The notes beneath the pieces were generated by a model. That model ran no database searches. It saw only the letters and a list, made by a program, of their open reading frames with translations, and had not been told where the DNA came from. A stretch of DNA of 21,291 nt from a virus: the IMG/VR virus record IMGVR_UViG_3300045970_000708, positions 1-21,291 of that record; one strand, given 5' to 3'. The translations under genes were made by a program, and so were the position numbers. Positions 5,386-21,291 of the stretch are shown one piece after another (position 1 is the stretch's first letter; each line of letters starts with the position of its first letter).

Positions 5386-5418
5386 AGACCGACTCGGTTT
5401 TTAAAACCGAGTCGGTCT
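5386..5418. repeat. 33-bp palindromic element, intergenic copy
   Basis: A 16-bp perfect inverted repeat with a one-base centre: AGACCGACTCGGTTTT at 5386-5401 and its complement at 5403-5418. It fills most of the 42-base gap between two tail genes and its right end overlaps the TAA stop of the upstream gene by one base. No T-run follows on the minus strand, so a normal intrinsic terminator is unlikely. A copy with two base changes lies inside the tape measure gene at 12264-12296. Confidence 0.85.
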
Positions 5419-5846
5419 TAAGTCGGGAACTGCAACACCAGCGAGGTCGGCACGATCAGCGCGCCGATGGCATAGCTGGCTGCGTCGAACTGCCACGCGG
5501 CGAGCGACCCGTCGCCTAGCGGCACACTCAACACGCCGGAGTCCACGTCCATCACCCACGCCCCCGCGCCGTCTTGGAAGCGCACAAAGCTGTGGGCATA
5601 GGTGCTGGCCACCATGGCATAGGCCCCGGTGTTGAAGGTCAACACGCCGTTGGCGATGGAGGCCGCGCAGGGCTTCGCCAGGGTGAACGTCAATATCAGA
5701 GGGTTGCTGAGGGACACCGCCACGCCACGCGCCGGACAGGTGCCGGAATAGACCAGCGCCTGGCCGGGGTTGGCGTTCGCGTCCAGGGCGGCGGCAATGG
5801 AGGTCCAAAAGGCGTTTTCGACAGTGTGGGATGCGGCGACTCTCAT
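5418..5846 (-). CDS. small tail fibre-associated protein
   Basis: This 142-residue protein has an N-terminal helix (TVENAFWTSIAAALDANANP) followed by a beta-rich region: GQALVYSGTCPARG, LILTFTLAKPCAASIANGVL, then TFNTGAYAMVASTYAHSFV and VMDVDSGVLSVPLGDGSLA. The composition fits a small phage fibre, adaptor or tip protein, but I cannot name a family. The ATG at 5846 overlaps the TGA of the upstream LamG-type gene as ATGA, with GAGG about 10 bases upstream. The stop touches the 5386-5418 palindrome. Its location between a receptor-binding candidate and the tail hub suggests a connector between them. Confidence 0.6.
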   Translation of the reverse strand: MRVAASHTVENAFWTSIAAALDANANPGQALVYSGTCPARGVAVSLSNPLILTFTLAKPCAASIANGVLTFNTGAYAMVASTYAHSFVRFQDGAGAWVMDVDSGVLSVPLGDGSLAAWQFDAASYAIGALIVPTSLVLQFPT

Positions 5847-8098: not shown

Positions 8099-11000
8099 CT
8101 ACGCGCTGGCATTGCCGATCACCTGCACTTGAAACTGGTCGTTGCTGGTCAGGCTGCTGCCGGGCAGCACCGTCACAATGGGCCACACGCCCCGGTTCGC
8201 GCCCACGGTGTCGAAGCGGAAGCACTCGCCGATGTTGCCGCCCTGCCCCAAGAACCCGGCGCGGACGGTGAAGTACGCCTTGCCGGTCAGCGGGTTGCCC
8301 GGGCTGTAGTCGGTGTTGATGGACACCGGCGTGGCGTTGACCTTGCCCAAGCCTTCGGAATAGCAGTTGTAGTTGGTCGTGCTCGCCATCACCATCACCC
8401 AACTGTCGGTCACTGCGCCGTCGTTCACCAGTTCAATCGGGAACAGAGCGGATTGGTATTGCATGATCGGCTCGTTGCCTATCCGCGTGTCCGACCACAC
8501 GCTGGTCCACGTCGCCTGGGTGAAGGCTACCGGGACCGACACCAGCATGTTGCCCAAGGGCAGGGCTTTCGATACATAAGCCCCCGCCGGGTAATCGTGC
8601 GACAGCGGACGCTCGAAGGTAATCAGGCCCGACAGGTCCACGTCCAACACGCGCATCCGGTCGAGGATTTGATGGTGCAGAGTTAACGGCTGCACATAGG
8701 CCGACAGGTTTAAATTCGCGCTGTAGGCGAACTGCACCCCGAGCAGCCCGTTTTCGTTGGTCTTGTGCTCCGTCCAAGTGGACGCGGACGCCGGCACGTT
8801 CAGCCCGTTGGCATCAGTCACCCGCACCCGGTACAGCCGGTTCCTGCCCGCCAGATACACCGCGCCTTGGGTGATCGGATTTTCCAAGGCCAGTGCGTCC
8901 TCGTGATGCACCACCGCGTCGTCGGCCTTGGCGTAGCACTGCGCCAGGCCGTTGCCGGGGAATGCCGAGGGGTTGATGCCGATCTCGGCCTTGTCCACCG
9001 GCAGGTAACTCACCGCCGTGGCATTCACCCGCAAAGTGTCGGCGAAGATGGGGCCGGGCTTCCAAATCTTGCCGTCGGACTCGCGGATGTTGGCCGCGTC
9101 GTACCACCATTGCGCGTCGTCGCCGGTCACCAGCGTGTGCCAGTCGCCAAAGCGCAGATGAAAAATGCCGGTGTTGGCGTTGACGATGCCGCTGACGTGG
9201 GTGGCAGCAAGAATGCCCGAGGTCGGCACGGTGACATTGACCGCCGCCCCGGCCACGGTGGTGGCGAGGATTTGCACGGACCCGGGGCTTAACGGCCTGC
9301 TGGGCGACATGAACACGCAGTCGGAGACTTGCACCCGGCCCATGGCCGTCAGGCAGGCGTACAGGCTGCGCGTCGGCGTGCCGGCATTCCAAATCGACAG
9401 CGTGGCCAGGCCGGTGGCCCCGTCCAGCGTGCCCGCGTCCGTCCCCGCGCCGGTGGCGTGGTCGATGTCAGTCAACAGCCGTCCGGCGTTGTCCTGATAG
9501 GTGCGCCCCGCCAGCGTGAACAGCGCGGTCGAGGGCACCAGCGGCTGGTTCAGGTCGGGCGTGATGTCCATGTACAGGGTGTCCGCCGTATGGTATTCCA
9601 ACTGCGCACTGCCGGTCCCGGTCAGGCGGTAGCGGACGGTGATGCCGCCTGCCAGCACGTCGATGGTCACAGACGAGGAGATGCTCGTTTTGGTGGAGAT
9701 TTCCCGCGAGGAAGCGGTGGAGCTTCCCGCCGTGTCCTTGCCCATGGCCACGCGCTGGTCGTGCGTCAGCACCCCCGTCTCAACCAGGGAAAAACTGGCA
9801 ATGGGCTTGTACACCGACTGGTCGGGATGGATTTTCACCTGCCCTGCCGCATAGTCGATCCATTCGGTGTTGGGCCGGTCGTGGAAATGGCCCAGGCCGT
9901 CGTCCTGCGCGAGGTAGGTCTTGTCCCCGGCTTGGTATTGCACCTCCACGCTGCCCGGATGCAGCCCGGTAACATCCAGCTCTATCGTGACGAAGCCGTC
10001 GCCGCCCACGTTCGGGTTGTCCACAGTATGGCTTAAGGGCGCGCCTTGGTCGTACGTCACGGTGAACAGCGTCCCCGCTGCGGGCAATGTGGTCGGGCGC
10101 ACGGTCAGCAACGGCCCGCCGCTCGCCAGATAGCGCACGCTGCCCGCCGCGTCGCCGGTCAGCAGCCCCTTGCTGTTGTCGGTGGCGCTGCGGGCGCTGC
10201 CGTCGTTCCAAATGAGGGTGAAGCTGCCTGGCACCCCGCCCGCGTTCGCCAGTTGGAAGCGGAATTCCGGCGCGGGCAGGGTTTCCCCGGCATGGTTGGC
10301 AGTGACGGAGGCGGAACCGGAAGCGATGACGATTTCCGTCCCCGCGTCCGCCAAATACACCAGCGTGAATTCGAGCGTGTTCGTGTCCCAGCGGAACTGC
10401 CCTACGCCGTGTGAGGAGTCGATGCCTTGCAGAATCCCGATGCCCCGGTCCCAAATCTTGTAGACCTTGCCGCCCGCGATATAGGACACCGACAGGCTTC
10501 CCGGCGACGGCACCCAGCCGAGCGTCAGCACATAGTTCTCGCGCCGCGACGCGGCGTCCACGCCGATGGAGGCGGAGTGCATGTACTGCAAGGGCGACCC
10601 GGCAGTCTGGAGGGTAAAGCTCTTGCTGCCGGAATAAGTCGGCGCACCCGCCACGCCGGTCACGATGCCGTTCACATAATTAAGGTTTGCCACCACGGTC
10701 GAACCGGACAGCAGCGAGCCGCGCCCGTTGTCCGTCAAGCCGCTAACGGTCAAGGTGCCGGGCAGGAAGGGCGTCCCCAGATACAGCGCCTCGCCGGGGG
10801 CCACGCTTGCGGACGTGGCAAACGAATAACTGCCGGACCCGGAGGCGATCAGCCCTTGGCTTTTGCCGCCGATGTCCATGTTCGGCAGGTTGACGCTGGT
10901 TTCCGCCGAGGGGATCAGCCGGTGGTAGATCGAACCCACCTGCACCGTGTTCGCCAAGGCCAGGGCTTCCGCCTGCAATGCCTTCACGCTGTACAGGGTC

Positions 11001-11674
11001 ACCGCGTCGGCCACCCGCGTGGTGCGGAATTCCGCCACGCCGGTCGGGCTGTCTTCCAGCGTCACCGCGCCGCCGTCATAGTCCTCGTCCAGCCGCTCGG
11101 CAAGCTGGATGGTGATGAAGTCGAACGTGTGCGCGTTGCCGCCGATGTACACCGTCCGCGTCTGCACGGCGACCTCGGTGGAGCGCACCAGTTGCACATG
11201 GGCCGAGGGCGTGCCGTAGCTTTTGGTCAGCGCGTAGGTTTCCCCCACGCCGGGCAAGTCCCCGCCCGTCGGCTGGTAGATTTGGATGGCCTTCTGGTTC
11301 GCCAGTTGCAGCCCGTACAGCTTGCCGTACCACTTGCCCGAGATCACCAGGTATTGTTCCAGCTTGGCCCGCGCCTCCGCCCAGCGGTCATAGGCCGAGG
11401 CAGTGTACAGCAGGCACACCGCCACCTCGGCGTCGGCGGGCGGCTTGGCAATGAACGCCCACGGCTTGTAATAGACCTCGATGCCGTCGGTGTACGCGGA
11501 CACATAGAACTTGTAGCCCGCCACATAACCGGACACCTTGTCCGCGTCTGCAATCGGCGGCACCAGGTTGCCCACCTGCCCGGAGGTGATGACACGGGAG
11601 GTGATCTGCCCGCCGAACGTGTCGTCGGGCCGCTGGCTTTCGGACTCGAAAAATACAATGTCGGTGTCTAGCAT
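8099..11674 (-). CDS. large tail-tip/baseplate protein
   Basis: At 1191 residues this is the longest protein here. It follows the tape measure region and precedes the fibre genes, the usual place for a large tail-tip or baseplate component. The N-terminal 240 residues are mixed alpha/beta (FESESQRPDDTFGG, YDRWAEARAKLEQYLVIS, TVYIGGNAHTFDFITIQL). The rest is dominated by repeated beta-strand and glycine/serine patterns, with several segments of the form YLADAGTEIVIASGSASV and FTVTYDQGAPLSHTV, suggesting many Ig-like or beta-sandwich domains. No peptidase or lysozyme motif is visible. The start ATG at 11674 has CGGAAC nearby and lies 33 bases after the preceding gene. Family not recognised by name; the structural role is inferred from size, composition and position. 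Confidence 0.65.
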   Translation of the reverse strand: MLDTDIVFFESESQRPDDTFGGQITSRVITSGQVGNLVPPIADADKVSGYVAGYKFYVSAYTDGIEVYYKPWAFIAKPPADAEVAVCLLYTASAYDRWAEARAKLEQYLVISGKWYGKLYGLQLANQKAIQIYQPTGGDLPGVGETYALTKSYGTPSAHVQLVRSTEVAVQTRTVYIGGNAHTFDFITIQLAERLDEDYDGGAVTLEDSPTGVAEFRTTRVADAVTLYSVKALQAEALALANTVQVGSIYHRLIPSAETSVNLPNMDIGGKSQGLIASGSGSYSFATSASVAPGEALYLGTPFLPGTLTVSGLTDNGRGSLLSGSTVVANLNYVNGIVTGVAGAPTYSGSKSFTLQTAGSPLQYMHSASIGVDAASRRENYVLTLGWVPSPGSLSVSYIAGGKVYKIWDRGIGILQGIDSSHGVGQFRWDTNTLEFTLVYLADAGTEIVIASGSASVTANHAGETLPAPEFRFQLANAGGVPGSFTLIWNDGSARSATDNSKGLLTGDAAGSVRYLASGGPLLTVRPTTLPAAGTLFTVTYDQGAPLSHTVDNPNVGGDGFVTIELDVTGLHPGSVEVQYQAGDKTYLAQDDGLGHFHDRPNTEWIDYAAGQVKIHPDQSVYKPIASFSLVETGVLTHDQRVAMGKDTAGSSTASSREISTKTSISSSVTIDVLAGGITVRYRLTGTGSAQLEYHTADTLYMDITPDLNQPLVPSTALFTLAGRTYQDNAGRLLTDIDHATGAGTDAGTLDGATGLATLSIWNAGTPTRSLYACLTAMGRVQVSDCVFMSPSRPLSPGSVQILATTVAGAAVNVTVPTSGILAATHVSGIVNANTGIFHLRFGDWHTLVTGDDAQWWYDAANIRESDGKIWKPGPIFADTLRVNATAVSYLPVDKAEIGINPSAFPGNGLAQCYAKADDAVVHHEDALALENPITQGAVYLAGRNRLYRVRVTDANGLNVPASASTWTEHKTNENGLLGVQFAYSANLNLSAYVQPLTLHHQILDRMRVLDVDLSGLITFERPLSHDYPAGAYVSKALPLGNMLVSVPVAFTQATWTSVWSDTRIGNEPIMQYQSALFPIELVNDGAVTDSWVMVMASTTNYNCYSEGLGKVNATPVSINTDYSPGNPLTGKAYFTVRAGFLGQGGNIGECFRFDTVGANRGVWPIVTVLPGSSLTSNDQFQVQVIGNASA

Positions 11675-12124: not shown

Positions 12125-15100
12125 GACACCTTCATTTGCCGCTTGACCGCCCGCAAGTCCTGCTCGAAACGGCTAGGCACATCCGCCGGCACCACGGTCC
12201 CGTTGGGCAGCGCCAGTTCCAGGCGGATGGTGGACGCCGGTGCGCTGGGCCTGGTCGGCGGGGAGACCGACTCGGTTTTTGCAACCGAGTCGGTCTTGAC
12301 TGCACCCATGGCGTTGTTGATATGGTTGCTTACGGCGGTTTTCAGGTCGGGTTGTAGCTGCCCATAGGTGTGCGTCCTTAACCCCTCGAATGATTTGAAC
12401 AGTTCGGCGTACAGGGCGTTTTGCCGGTTGGCGGTGCTGAGGTTGGCTGCGGTCGCGCCGGTGTCAACGGAGGAGCCGATGCCGCTTTTCCACGTCGTCG
12501 CCTTTTGGTTCACGTCCAGCACCTCCCGCATCTTCGCTTGCAAGTAAGCGTTGCCGGTCGCCTTGACCTTCTGCTCCAGCACGGCGGCCATGTCGGCGGT
12601 CATCGTCGTCAGCCCCTGCCCGCTGATCAGCTTGTCTATCCACTGGTCGAGTTCGCTGTTGATGCCGGACACATCGCCCGCCGCCCCGCCGGACGCGAAC
12701 TTGCGGGCGTTCAATGCCGCGAACAGCCCCGGCCCGTAATGGCCCACCGCCTCCTTTCTAACGACGAACTCGCCCGCCTCCAACAGCGCCGGCACCTTGT
12801 CGCCGCCGCCGTAGCCGGAAAGCGCACCGCCCCGCGCCAAGGCCGCGATGATGCCGCCGAAACGCCTGCCTTCGGCTGGCGCGGGTTCCGCACCTGCCGC
12901 CACGGTTTGGATGGTGATGGTCTTGGTTTCCGGGGCCACCAGACCGGCAATCACGCCCTGTGCCGTCGTCAGGCTGGCCTGGTCGATCTCCAACTTTAAC
13001 GACTTCGCCTGGGCCAGTTGCCGGTCCAAGGCTTCCAGCGCCGTGTTCATGTCGCCAAGCTTCTCCTTGGCGTGGTCCAGCGAGGGTTCCAGCGTCTTGG
13101 CGTTGGCCTCGTGCTGCTGGTTGATCTTGCCTAAGGTTTCCTGTTGAAGGTTGTAAAGCCCGTTAAGCTGATCCTCGCCTTTGCTAATGTCGCCCGTCTT
13201 GTACTGTGTGCGCTTGACGTTGGCCTCAGTGACCTGAGAAATTAACTGGGTGGCCTGTCCATACAGCCGGTTTAGTTCCTTTTCGTCGGCCTGTTCGCCC
13301 TTGGCGGCTTCGGCCTTGTATTTTGCAATCGCCGCGTCGCGTTCCAATTCTTGGGATTTGAGTTTTTCCCGCTCGGTCATGCCGAGCCGCCTGATTTCTA
13401 GGATTTGCTGTTCATGGCTCAGGGCCAAAGTTTTCAGCCCCTCCGTCCCGGCTTGGAATAGCTGCATCTCCCTTTGCCACTGTCCTTGAATCTCGTCCAC
13501 CACGGCGGCGTAAGCCTTCGCCAAATCGCCATAGGCGGCTTTGCGCGCCTCGACGGTGGCAAGGGCAAGCTGCTTCTTTTGCGACTCGCCTTGCGCGGCC
13601 TGGGCCATTTCCGTGGTGTAGGCCGCATTGATCGCATCCAGGCGCTGCGCCTCGTATCTTCGCACCTCCGCCAGCTTGGCGAGGTTCGTGGCCGTTTCCG
13701 CCAGGGCGCGTTGCTGCGCCTTGACGGTCTCGTTGGCGTCGGAGGCGTCGATGAGCGCAAGCCGCTGTGCCAGCGCCGCCGTCAGGCTGGCGGTCTGGCG
13801 GGCGTAATGCTCATCGATGAGCTTCGTGCCTTCCTTTAGCTTTTCGCCGTTGGCGGTGATGGATGCCGCCAATGCGGACGCGGCATCTTCGGCTGTCACC
13901 GCAGATTGCTTTAATGCGCCCAGCCTGGACGCGGCGTATTCGACGGACTTGCCATAGAGGTCCGCCGCTGCCTCGGCTTCCTTCATGCCCGTCATGTTCC
14001 CCGCAGCCCTGTCGGCCATTGCCATCGCGGCCCAATAGCGCTGGGCTTTGGCGGCACGGTCGGCATAGGCTGCGGCTTCCACCGCCGTCATTTCGCCCAG
14101 TTTCGCCGCGCTGTAGATGCTGGTATGGGCATATTCCTGGGTGGCTGCCAGAGTCTCGGTTATCTTCTGCCTGAGTTTTTCATGGTCGTCGGCATTGTTG
14201 CGCGTCAACTCCCTGACCTGGCTTTGCCGCTTTGCGTAATCGTCCAATGCCTCGGCGATTTTCTTGTAGCCAAAGGCCAATGCCGCGATTGCTGTGACCA
14301 GGGGGGCGAAGGCTGTGGTGACGGTGGTAGCCGCAGTGACTGCCTCCGCCGCCCATGCGGCGAAGGCGACTGCGGCGTTTTTGAGGCTGTTCGCCAGAGT
14401 GCCGGCCAATACCACGCCGAGCATTTCTAGCGAGGTTTTGATGGCGTCAAAATTGTCCGACAAAGCCTTGGCAAGGCTTGCGACCGCCCCCCCCGCCCCG
14501 GTCATGGCATTGGATATTTTCTCGGCCCATGCCTGCAATTCCCCGGACTTCGCCATTTCGGTGAAGGCGGCGTTGATCGCGTCCACCTTGGACTTCATGA
14601 AATCCAACGCGCCCGACCGGGCAATCGAGTCGAGGAATTGCGCCCAGTTGTCCGACAGGTTGGAAACCATGCCGGTCCAGGTCTTCATCTGTGCGCCCGC
14701 CGCACCCGCCGCCGACCGGCCCATCTCGTCGAGCAGCCCCTTGATCTCGATGCGGCCTATCTTTCCTGCCTCGGACATTTGCATGACCTCGGCACCGGTC
14801 TTGTTCATGACCTTCCCCAGCAAGTCCCACACCGGGACGCCGCGCTCGATGAGTTGGTTCGCGTCCTCGGCCTGAAGTTTTTGCTTGGTCCACGACTGCC
14901 CGACCGCCAGGATCATGCCCGCCAGGGTTTCCTGGCTGCCGTTCATCTTGGCGTTCTGGTCTACCAGCGTTTGCAGTGTGCCGCCCATGGGGTCCATCCC
15001 AAAGGCTTTCAGTTTGATGAACGCCTCGGACACGCCGCCCAGTTGCAGCGGGGTGTCCTTGGCGAATTGCTGAATCCATGCGAAGGCGCGGTCGCCCTCG

Positions 15101-15463: not shown

Positions 15464-15492
15464 GGATAACACCCCTGGGAGGGGTGTCATCC
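15464..15492. repeat. 29-bp palindromic element (copy 1)
   Basis: GGATAACACCCCT (15464-15476) and AGGGGTGTCATCC (15480-15492) are complementary at 12 of 13 positions around GGG. The element lies 17 bases before the tape measure start and contains the TGA that ends the chaperone frameshift reading frame (15487-15489, minus strand). A perfect copy lies at 21170-21198. No T-run follows, so its action as a terminator is doubtful. Confidence 0.8.
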
Positions 15493-15744
15493 GTTCTGAT
15501 AATCCAAACACGCCAGAAAAAACGACCAGCCGTAATCGAACACCTGCCCGTGGCCGCGCTCGATCAGTCCGATGCAGCAGCGGTCGAGCTGGCGGAGGTG
15601 ACCGGCGGGGCCGGGATGTTCAGCCCGGTCAGCGCCAGGGCGCGGAAAAAGGGGGCGTTGAGTTCGCGGAACCCGGCCCACACCTCCTCGGCCTCGCTGA
15701 AGGTCAAATCCTCCCAGGCAAGCCCCTTGCCCAATTCGACGCAA
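15487..15744 (-). CDS. probable -1 frame extension of the tail assembly chaperone
   Basis: In the -1 frame relative to the chaperone gene, an open stretch runs from about 15744 to a stop at 15487. Its last 30 residues, after the chaperone stop, read like real protein: LIERGHGQVFDYGWSFFLAC, then LDYQNG. No usable start codon with a ribosome binding site lies near that segment. This matches the lambda G/GT arrangement, in which a fraction of ribosomes shift by -1 near the end of G to make a longer chaperone. A C5-T5 run at 15655-15646 is a possible slip site, although it is not a canonical X-XXY-YYZ heptamer in the zero frame. Only the region from about 15650 down is expected to be translated in this frame. 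The shift is inferred. Confidence 0.5.
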   Translation of the reverse strand: MRRIGQGACLGGFDLQRGRGGVGRVPRTQRPLFPRPGADRAEHPGPAGHLRQLDRCCIGLIERGHGQVFDYGWSFFLACLDYQNG

Positions 15745-19312: not shown

Positions 19313-20314
19313 TCACCCGTTCGTCTTCAACGCCACCAGCCGCACATGCTTGCGGTCGTAGACGCGCAGCCAGTTAGTCGCCAGCGCCAGTTCCGCGTTG
19401 GTCGGCGCGGCCCCGGCCACGCTGCCGGAAGTCCACTTAACGCCCCTGGGGTGCAGGATGAACGAGCGCCGGTTGTACAGCGTGTCCATGCCCGAGCCGT
19501 TGCCCGCGTCCGGTTTGCGGAAGACTTCCGTCGGCACCTGCGGCGAACCCTCGCCATAACCTACCGCCCCCGCGCCGAACAGGTAGCTGGTATAGGTGAT
19601 GCGGTTGGAACCGGACACCGCCGGGCAGCCGTCGTCCACCACCACGGTCATGTTCAGGTACGTCCCCCAGCCGATGTTCTGCACGTTGGTGGGCAGGAAG
19701 CTGATCAGGTTCTGCCGCAGCAGTTCGGTGTACAGCGCCGAGTGGAAGGCGATGGCGGTCAATTGCGAACCGGCGTCGCCCATCGTCTGCCGCGCCAGCA
19801 GCACCGGCGTCGGGCCAATCCGCTCGGCGGGCGCTATCGCGTCGGCGCTGTCCGTCGCCACGCTGTGGATCATGTCGGAACTGTTGTTCGCCACGTTGGA
19901 TAAAAACACGCCCGTCAGCGAGGCGATCAGAATATGCTGCTGGTCCCTGGCCCAGAACCCGGCGACCGAGTCGGCGATCACGCGGGCCGGGTCGTCGCCC
20001 GCCAGTTCGGCGGCGATGTCCATCTCCGCCCAAGATTTGGCGCGGAAGTGCTTGACGCACACGTCCTGCGCGGCGGTCAAATTGTCCGGCGTGCTCAGTG
20101 CGGCGGGGTCGTCCGAACTCACGTCGGAGTCGCCGGTCAGGTCCTGCCAGAACGGCATGTTGAAGGTTTTGCCCCCGCCCTGCGCCAGCGCCGCGATGCG
20201 CGGGTCGCTGCCGAAGATGCCGGAACGGGCCAGGGCGGAGAGTTCCATCGTCTTCACCTGCACATACGGCGTGAAGACACTGGGAATGATTACGTCAGAA
20301 ATGCGTGTTGGCAT
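19313..20314 (-). CDS. major capsid protein
   Basis: This 333-residue protein has the features of a phage major capsid protein: MPTRISDVIIPSVFTPYVQV at the start, GGGKTFNMPFWQDLTGDSDV (about 47-66), the segment AQDVCVKHFRAKSWAEMDIA with AAELAGDDPARVIADSVAGF, then ISFLPTNVQNIGWGTYLNMT and VVVDDG near the axial domain, and NRRSFILHPRGVKWTSG at the C-terminus. The fold is presumably HK97-like. The frame opens with TTG at 20326, but ATG 20314 with GAGGA 5 bases upstream is chosen. It lies just downstream of the scaffold gene, the standard order, with a REP-like element between. Confidence 0.9.
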   Translation of the reverse strand: MPTRISDVIIPSVFTPYVQVKTMELSALARSGIFGSDPRIAALAQGGGKTFNMPFWQDLTGDSDVSSDDPAALSTPDNLTAAQDVCVKHFRAKSWAEMDIAAELAGDDPARVIADSVAGFWARDQQHILIASLTGVFLSNVANNSSDMIHSVATDSADAIAPAERIGPTPVLLARQTMGDAGSQLTAIAFHSALYTELLRQNLISFLPTNVQNIGWGTYLNMTVVVDDGCPAVSGSNRITYTSYLFGAGAVGYGEGSPQVPTEVFRKPDAGNGSGMDTLYNRRSFILHPRGVKWTSGSVAGAAPTNAELALATNWLRVYDRKHVRLVALKTNG

Positions 20315-20342: not shown

Positions 20343-20385
20343 CGTTCCCACGGTCCCCGTGGGAACGGCTCCCACGCGGGGCATG
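20343..20385. repeat. REP-like element between scaffold and capsid genes
   Basis: CGTTCCCACGG (20343-20353) and CCGTGGGAACG (20357-20367) form a perfect 11-bp stem with the loop TCC. On the minus strand it is preceded by CATGCCCCGCGTGGGAG, which matches CATGCCCCGTTGGGAG flanking the element at 8078-8095. It fills much of the 84-base gap between scaffold and capsid genes. Both genes keep their own start signals, so it may act as an mRNA stability or processing barrier. Confidence 0.75.
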
Positions 20386-20398
20386 GGTACGGTGTGGG

Positions 20399-21061
20399 TC
20401 AGCCCTTCGCCGCCAGCCGCAGCCGCTCGGCCCGCGCCGGGTCCGCCTTGGCTATCTGGCCCTGCTCGGTCAGGTTGAAATGCTCCTTGCCCCACGGGTT
20501 ACGTTCCGCCCCGCCCGCGCCCTGCGGCGCGCCGGAACCGGCCGGCCCAGCCTTCGCCAGGTACGGCTTCTGCGCCAACAGTTCGGCGACCGCCTCGGCC
20601 ACGGCCTTCCCGCCTATCGTCACCACGCCGTTCTCCACCTTCGCCTTGTTGCCCAACAGCGCCTGCACCACATCCGGGTCGACCGCATGCGTCGCCGCCA
20701 TGATCAAGGCCTGGCTGACCGTCAACCGCTCCGTCTCCGCCTTGGCCTGCGCCAGTTCGACGGTGCGCTGGTCCAGCAGCTTGGCCGACTCGCCCTTGGC
20801 CTTCGCCTGCTCGGTCTGGAATTCGTCAAACGTCGCATGGCCCGTGGCCTGTTTGAAGCGCTCGGCAAACTCGTTGGACTGTTTTTGCAGCGCCTTGGCG
20901 ATTTCCGCCTGGATGTCGGGCGCGGGGGGTGTTGCGGGAGGGGTGGGTGTCGGATTTGGGGTTGGGGGTGTGGCGGGCGGGGTTGCCCCGCCGCCGTCGC
21001 CCTCCGCCATCGACAGGTGCAGGAATAGCAAAAGGGTGATAAATGGGAATCGCTTCAGCAT
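20399..21061 (-). CDS. scaffold protein with a signal-like N-terminus
   Basis: This 220-residue protein precedes the capsid gene and has the make-up of a phage scaffold: a helical region with QKQSNEFAERFKQATGHATF, then RTVELAQAKAETERLTVSQA (residues about 52-120), a compact part VDPDVVQALLGNKAKVENGV, GKAVAEAVAELLAQKPYL, and a C-terminal flexible and helical tail that would contact the capsid. Residues about 24-48 are a proline-rich linker. The first 18 residues (MLKRFPFITLLLFLHLSM) look like a signal peptide or membrane anchor. ATG 21061 has ACGGAG 6 bases upstream; an internal ATG at 21010 lacks a ribosome binding site. That site is buried in an 11-bp stem (21068-21114). Gene order and domain pattern make the scaffold call good. 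Confidence 0.75.
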   Translation of the reverse strand: MLKRFPFITLLLFLHLSMAEGDGGGATPPATPPTPNPTPTPPATPPAPDIQAEIAKALQKQSNEFAERFKQATGHATFDEFQTEQAKAKGESAKLLDQRTVELAQAKAETERLTVSQALIMAATHAVDPDVVQALLGNKAKVENGVVTIGGKAVAEAVAELLAQKPYLAKAGPAGSGAPQGAGGAERNPWGKEHFNLTEQGQIAKADPARAERLRLAAKG

Positions 21062-21067
21062 GGAAGT

Positions 21068-21114
21068 CTCCGTTACAGGGTGTGGGGTATCGTGTCGATG
21101 CCACTGTAACGGAG
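21068..21114 (-). promoter_or_regulatory. hairpin burying the scaffold ribosome binding site
   Basis: On the minus strand, CTCCGTTACAG (21114-21104) pairs perfectly over 11 bp with CTGTAACGGAG (21078-21068), with a 25-base loop. The second arm ends in ACGGAG, the Shine-Dalgarno of the scaffold gene, whose ATG follows six bases later. When folded, ribosomes could not reach the site. This would allow control by temperature, by a bound protein or by translation of the upstream gene. Confidence 0.6.
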
Positions 21115-21169
21115 TTGCCTAAAGTTGGGAATGCCGTCCGGGGAAGGCAACAACCGGGGATGGCATCAC

Positions 21170-21198
21170 GGATAACACCCCTCCCAGGGGTGTTATCC
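21170..21198. repeat. 29-bp palindromic element (copy 2)
   Basis: GGATAACACCCCT (21170-21182) and AGGGGTGTTATCC (21186-21198) are perfectly complementary around CCC. It lies 5 bases after the stop of the partial gene at the right edge. The copy at 15464-15492 differs by one base in an arm plus the centre. No T-run follows on the minus strand. Confidence 0.85.
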
Positions 21199-21203
21199 TT
21201 AGG

Positions 21204-21291
21204 TCAATCCTCGAAATAACGGCAGGCGGGGGAACCGGCCTTGATGTCGGTTCCGGGCCCGCCGGTCCACTGAGCCCGTATCAGGTAGCAT
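21204..21291 (-). CDS. C-terminal end of an unknown late gene (partial)
   Basis: On the minus strand a reading frame enters from the right edge and ends with TGA at 21204-21206. Its 28 visible codons read CYLIRAQWTGGPGTDIKAGS then PACRYFED. Balanced composition and a stop just before a palindromic element suggest a true gene end. It would be the late gene before the scaffold. Too little is visible to name it. The stretch 21115-21169, between the palindrome and the scaffold hairpin, shows nothing recognisable. Confidence 0.45.
   Translation of the reverse strand, partial: CYLIRAQWTGGPGTDIKAGSPACRYFED

Follow-up and report, generated by a model that had tools for sequence, protein, structure and literature searches.

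Scaffolding proteins are needed in large yet transient amounts, and to our knowledge it is poorly understood how phages meter them outside P22. In P22, free scaffolding protein feeds back on its own synthesis after transcription, and we know of no leader hairpin established as the cause of that feedback. The locus studied here raises the question of whether a hairpin in the mRNA leader gates the translation of a phage scaffold gene, and how such a gate might be opened. The DNA is an IMG/VR virus record of 21,291 bases from an uncultured phage, and this entire stretch is termed the window. In mRNA sense the scaffold leader, which lies on the minus strand, reads CUCCGUUACAG-(25 nt)-CUGUAACGGAG-ACUUCC-AUG, and the gene and its leader comprise the following elements:

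20399..21061, minus strand: head scaffolding protein gene, 220 aa, start ATG at 21061-21059
21068..21071, minus strand: Shine-Dalgarno (SD) sequence GGAG of the scaffold gene, read from the sequence; predicted pairing probability 1.00
21068..21078, minus strand: 3' arm (SD arm) CUGUAACGGAG, from inverted repeat I3 and the MFE structure
21079..21103, minus strand: 25-nt interior, partly paired, with inner helices GUGG/CCAC and AUCG/CGAU in the MFE structure
21104..21114, minus strand: 5' arm (anti-SD arm) CUCCGUUACAG, from inverted repeat I3 and the MFE structure

An earlier note on this DNA had described a perfect 11-bp stem, the second arm of which holds the scaffold SD six bases before the ATG, and both observations are borne out. 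A repeat search of the window yields arms of 11 nt at 21068-21078 and 21104-21114 that are 100% complementary and separated by 25 nt (inverted repeat I3); GGAG forms part of the 3' arm, and the ATG at 21061 lies exactly six bases downstream. The MFE structure of the window leader is this SD hairpin. A 121-nt leader folds with z = -3.9, an equal stability being reached in 1 of 200 dinucleotide shuffles, and when the upstream sequence was shuffled 60 times, no version attained the predicted GGAG pairing of 1.00. A search for an intrinsic terminator at the hairpin found none, and the exact hairpin has no other copy in the viral contigs searched.

A perfect hairpin of this size is not rare in this genome, since 10 perfect stems are present in the record if stems of 11 bp or more with loops of up to 60 nt are counted, compared with about 0.8 per shuffled genome. 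We estimate the chance that such a stem covers the SD of one given gene at about 1-2% at the observed density and at about 0.1% at the density of the shuffles. Because the genome is hairpin-rich, the evidence from within the window alone is moderate. The arm sequence does not occur a second time within the window; the SD hairpin is therefore not one of the dispersed palindromes, and its origin as a copy of a dispersed repeat was ruled out.

One of these palindromes lies in the same intergenic region, upstream of the leader:

21170..21198, minus strand: near-perfect palindromic hairpin GGATAACACCCCTGGGAGGGGTGTTATCC, without a U tract

This palindrome, GGATAACACCCCT...AGGGGTGTTATCC, occurs in two copies of opposite orientation, one (21170-21198) preceding the scaffold gene and the other (15464-15494) the tape-measure gene; the pattern used found no copy in viral contigs, and the first copy was unmatched in phage records. 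A second dispersed palindrome, GACCGACTCGGTT...AACCGAGTCGGTC, of 14-15 bp, is located before a tail gene (5386-5422) and again within the tape-measure ORF, in its 3' part (12264-12299).

The gene behind the leader had been taken for a scaffold gene and likened to that of P22. The assignment is corroborated by matches to the head scaffolding families phrog_206 (6e-8), phrog_2303 and phrog_194, and by a C-terminal motif, NPWGKEHFNLTEQG, that is common to other scaffolds. The comparison with P22 fails on the coat protein, which is encoded downstream:

19313..20314, minus strand: major capsid protein gene, ATG at 20314, GAGGA before the start

This protein matches phrog_247 at 1e-107 and the Pfam Gp13-like family above its cut-off. 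Judged by these family matches, the coat is SPP1 gp13-like and the head is not P22-like, and homology to P22 was rejected. The two systems may nevertheless share a post-transcriptional control of scaffold synthesis, P22 belonging to another head lineage. The tail protein (8099-11674) was discarded as a guide to relatives: two records reached through it, LR797314 and phage S1, carry other head modules.

The position of the start codon also required attention. In the five nearest relatives from the first scans the scaffold start aligns with M18 of the window ORF, which compared with these five has 17 extra N-terminal residues, MLKRFPFITLLLFLHLS. By inspection, an SD is present only at the 21061 start, and M18 has none; some other relatives begin with a different extension of the MFK, MFR or MYK type. 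On these two grounds the start at 21061 was kept and a start at M18 rejected. The 17-residue extension (21008-21061) is hydrophobic and resembles a signal peptide, and the near relatives lack it.

Near relatives of the scaffold gene were collected in three scans of viral contigs with growing scaffold alignments, which left 28 distinct leaders after the removal of identical ones, the window not counted. Most of these 28, which stem from metagenomic phages and are not independent samples, are predicted to fold into a hairpin whose 3' arm contains the SD (mostly ACAGGA). The predicted stems (RNA) include CCUGUGCUGGAAA..UUUCCAUCGCACAGG in L148, UCCUGUGCCGG..CCGGCAACAGGA in L136, UCCUGUGCAAG..UUUGCAUAGGA in L156, UUCUGUAACCUGAU..AUCAGACACAGGA in L160 and UAUCCUGUC..GACAGGAUA in L164. 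The outer helix is alike in most relatives; the inner helix differs in sequence, yet is again complementary, and the loops are rich in U and A in many. Three leaders (L129, L141 and L166) form no SD hairpin, and in L046/L159, the scaffold relative with the best score, a tRNA-Met gene takes the place of the hairpin. In L046 this tRNA-Met (anticodon CAT) occupies 1658-1732, stopping about 25 nt short of the scaffold start.

Across the 28 leaders and the window, the mean pairing of the SD with upstream sequence is 0.79; shuffles with the SD left intact give 0.57 (sd 0.05, maximum 0.68). The burial is specific to the scaffold gene: mean SD pairing is 0.78 for the scaffold genes and 0.41 for 53 neighbouring genes at these loci (Mann-Whitney p = 9e-7), and further downstream, at the coat gene among others, SDs show no systematic burial. 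When only the interior of the hairpin is shuffled, the inner stem proves complementary beyond chance, with a Fisher p of 7e-7 for the medians of 13 clusters, which were made by hand according to sequence, and of 4e-5 if the worst member of each cluster is taken. Occlusion of the SD by a scaffold leader hairpin is a prediction that is computationally well supported, and the hairpin in the window is real and probably functional.

Nor does the burial of SDs extend to scaffold genes at large. In more distant clades, 85 distinct scaffold loci, the starts of which were set by a simple SD rule and in some cases will be misplaced, show an SD pairing of 0.28, no higher than the 0.34 expected by chance. 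Neither the method nor the mere fact of being a scaffold gene therefore accounts for the pairing in the near relatives.

To ask how the stems have changed, pairs were counted on a consistent subset of leaders (A7) and on a model-fitted alignment (A9), since MAFFT alignments of all leaders (A4, A6) misplace the inner stems. In A7, three pairs show two-sided changes, with CG/UA, CG/GC and GC/AU in the inner stem. In the wider alignment A9, which is biased towards its own structure and takes in the reverse strand of one site, two-sided change affects 6 pairs and 11 cells. Its covariation score is 0.131, compared with 0.020-0.060 when the structure is slid along the alignment, and exceeds a built-in shuffle control only moderately (14/500 for the score). 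The pairs of the outer helix show one-sided changes only, and these are compatible with G-U pairing (C-G to U-G, G-C to G-U); such intermediates fit pairing in RNA better than a site in DNA.

A covariance model (R1) built from six of the relative leaders matches further scaffold start sites, namely L131 (5e-12), L138 (9e-9) and L142 (0.004), and more weakly some others with E of about 0.05-0.8; its sole other match below E = 1 is the L148 start site itself, read on the opposite strand. On the window hairpin the best score is 3.4 bits without the helices of the model, and the hairpin thus goes undetected. It follows that what the window hairpin has in common with those of the relatives is place and form, without conservation of sequence, and it is not counted as a member of model R1. 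Conservation of the stem, which the earlier note had named as a test, came out in favour of that note in so far as SD-burying hairpins recur upstream of the scaffold gene in the near relatives. Being unmatched by the model, and lacking a motif that most relatives carry in the 5' arm, the window hairpin could be an independent structure.

This motif, TAnnCTGT, resembles a -10 element and is found at the 5' edge of the 5' arm in most relatives, mostly 46-48 nt before the ATG; the invariant TA..CT..T seen in alignment A6 partly reflects the pattern by which its rows were chosen. The leading TA is often unpaired. In L130, L142 and L143 the motif is kept though, by inspection, it is unpaired with their SD (CCGGAG), which pairs elsewhere, and this suggests a second role for the motif, possibly that of a -10 box. 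A -35 signal does not accompany TAnnCTGT in the relatives (mean best match 2.39, versus 2.81 in shuffled sequence), and a canonical sigma-70 promoter over their 5' arm was accordingly rejected. The 5' arm of the window does not contain TAnnCTGT, and a promoter search at a threshold of 9/12 detected nothing at the hairpin. At a lower threshold a weak site can be proposed:

21103..21131, minus strand: weak sigma-70-like site, inferred; TTCCCA at 21131-21126, 17 nt, TACAGT at 21108-21103

With 8/12 matches it is the only one of this quality in the 145-nt intergenic region, 9% of shuffles have one as well, and its TACAGT overlaps the 5' arm. If RNA is cut 7 nt after the motif, the predicted cost of opening the SD drops from a median of 6.4 to 2.1 kcal/mol in the relatives, and if the RNA of the window is cut 7 nt after the weak TACAGT, from 9.9 to 3.4 kcal/mol.

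By inspection, CCGG/CCGG covers part of the SD in the leaders of L130, L142 and L143, and an exclusive alternative, CGGAC/GUCCG, would loop the SD out; a two-state leader is possible in these three.

The reading that we prefer, with a probability of roughly 0.55, is that the SD-burying hairpin limits translation of the scaffold gene from read-through mRNA and that an internal transcription start relieves this limit. On a read-through transcript the 5' arm would be made first and would pair with the SD as soon as the latter emerges, so that little scaffolding protein is produced. Efficient synthesis would depend on mRNA that lacks the 5' arm or has it opened, and the favoured release would be a transcription start inside the hairpin, at the -10-like element over the 5' arm, in the manner of T4 gene e. 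Such a start would couple scaffold synthesis to late transcription. We infer that the hairpin reduces scaffold translation and that relief comes from an internal start rather than from a bound protein. By this route, suggested by the -10-like motif of the relatives, a control of scaffold timing is plausible.

Precedents for such a gate come from phage T4, where the SD or the AUG of genes e, soc, 49 and I-TevI is buried in a helix; long early transcripts of gene e are blocked and late ones without the 5' strand are translated, which makes an approximately 100-fold difference (PMC3014915). The locus analysed here resembles this set in that the SD or start codon lies in a leader helix kept by relatives, and the -10-like motif of the relatives is found where gene e has a promoter over the 5' strand (PMC3014915). 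Pairing of the SD in the long transcript, on which a gate of the gene e type depends, is predicted here as well. The differences are that another phage group and a scaffold class of gene are concerned, that there is no sequence relation, and that the window lacks the motif of its relatives.

Several other explanations deserve attention. Free scaffolding protein might bind and stabilise the hairpin and thereby stop its own translation when not engaged in assembly. Such an operator would explain why the scaffold gene in particular has its SD buried in a hairpin, could make use of the U/A-rich loops of many relatives, and has phage precedents in T4 gp32 and gp43, the autoregulation of which also involves structured RNA at the ribosome binding site and proceeds through protein binding (PMC3014915). 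It is nevertheless unlikely: a protein site should leave a conserved loop or bulge sequence, and there is none, the inner stems changing completely between relatives; the head is SPP1-like rather than P22-like; and a stem of -20 kcal/mol occludes the SD without any protein. Less probable again is the broader proposal of a feedback RNA operator that meters shell assembly at the ribosome, with a fast-evolving RNA tracking the scaffold in the SPP1-type clade. Ranking below both is a hairpin that does not switch and simply fixes scaffold translation at a low level relative to coat. Recurrence throughout the clade with varied stability would be expected if only average strength mattered, and the lack of systematic SD burial at the downstream genes, that of the coat among them, agrees with it; yet in many members opening the SD would cost 6-13 kcal/mol, enough to all but silence translation. 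Since each capsid requires numerous copies of the protein, this would be odd unless the block is somehow relieved. The earlier note had also considered temperature control. Across the homologues, hairpin stability is predicted at anything from -4.2 to -20.4 kcal/mol, and an RNA thermometer is unlikely because such stability is not of a marginal and conserved kind.

Two further readings deny the RNA hairpin a role. The inverted repeat may act in DNA, as a promoter or the operator of a regulator, with the hairpin being incidental; the -10-like motif is indeed kept where it is unpaired with the SD, at a nearly constant spacing from the ATG. We regard this as very unlikely, given that a -35 signal is absent, that the G-U compatible changes of the outer helix matter for RNA and break the symmetry of DNA, that the inner stem has been re-formed from different sequences, and that a promoter leaves the choice of the SD as partner unexplained. 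The least probable view is that, whatever holds in the relatives, the window hairpin belongs by chance to the perfect hairpins that abound in this genome and serves no function; the excess of such stems in the genome and the missing covariance-model match might be cited for it. This hairpin, however, sits exactly on the SD of a gene whose relatives have buried SDs too, and its arms are not copied from the dispersed palindromes.

Taken with their predicted folds, the hairpins of the clade point to a conserved, putative control of when scaffold is made. They render the question of metering directly testable, and they offer natural stem variants with predicted opening costs of about 2.5 to 13 kcal/mol.

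The SD hairpin was also compared with Rfam, where no family matched it in the window or in seven near-relative loci tested, and membership of an Rfam family was rejected. The closest counterpart by gene class is GP20-b (RF03003), a curated cis-regulatory RNA, sub-threshold matches to which lead the same class of gene as the scaffold hairpin. GP20-b differs in consisting of two short hairpins with a GGCGUAAAAG-type sequence, and at the distant scaffold genes SD burial does not exceed chance. Its model is unmatched by the near relatives tested and by the window, where positions 20900-21291 gave no match at E up to 5. The sub-threshold matches lie upstream of Phage_scaffold-type genes in L007, L058, L090, L116 and L122, which suggests that the GP20-b family is wider than its model. 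The distant clades, some with GP20-b-like leaders, suggest that lineages of one gene may use different leader RNAs.

Two further RNA features were noted in these genomes. L164 encodes a C4 antisense RNA at 749-830 on the plus strand, as in some temperate phages, with a score above the Rfam gathering threshold. In the window, a perfect 11-bp hairpin, CGTTCCCACGG/CCGTGGGAACG, is situated at 20343-20367 between the scaffold and capsid genes, upstream of the capsid SD and without covering it.
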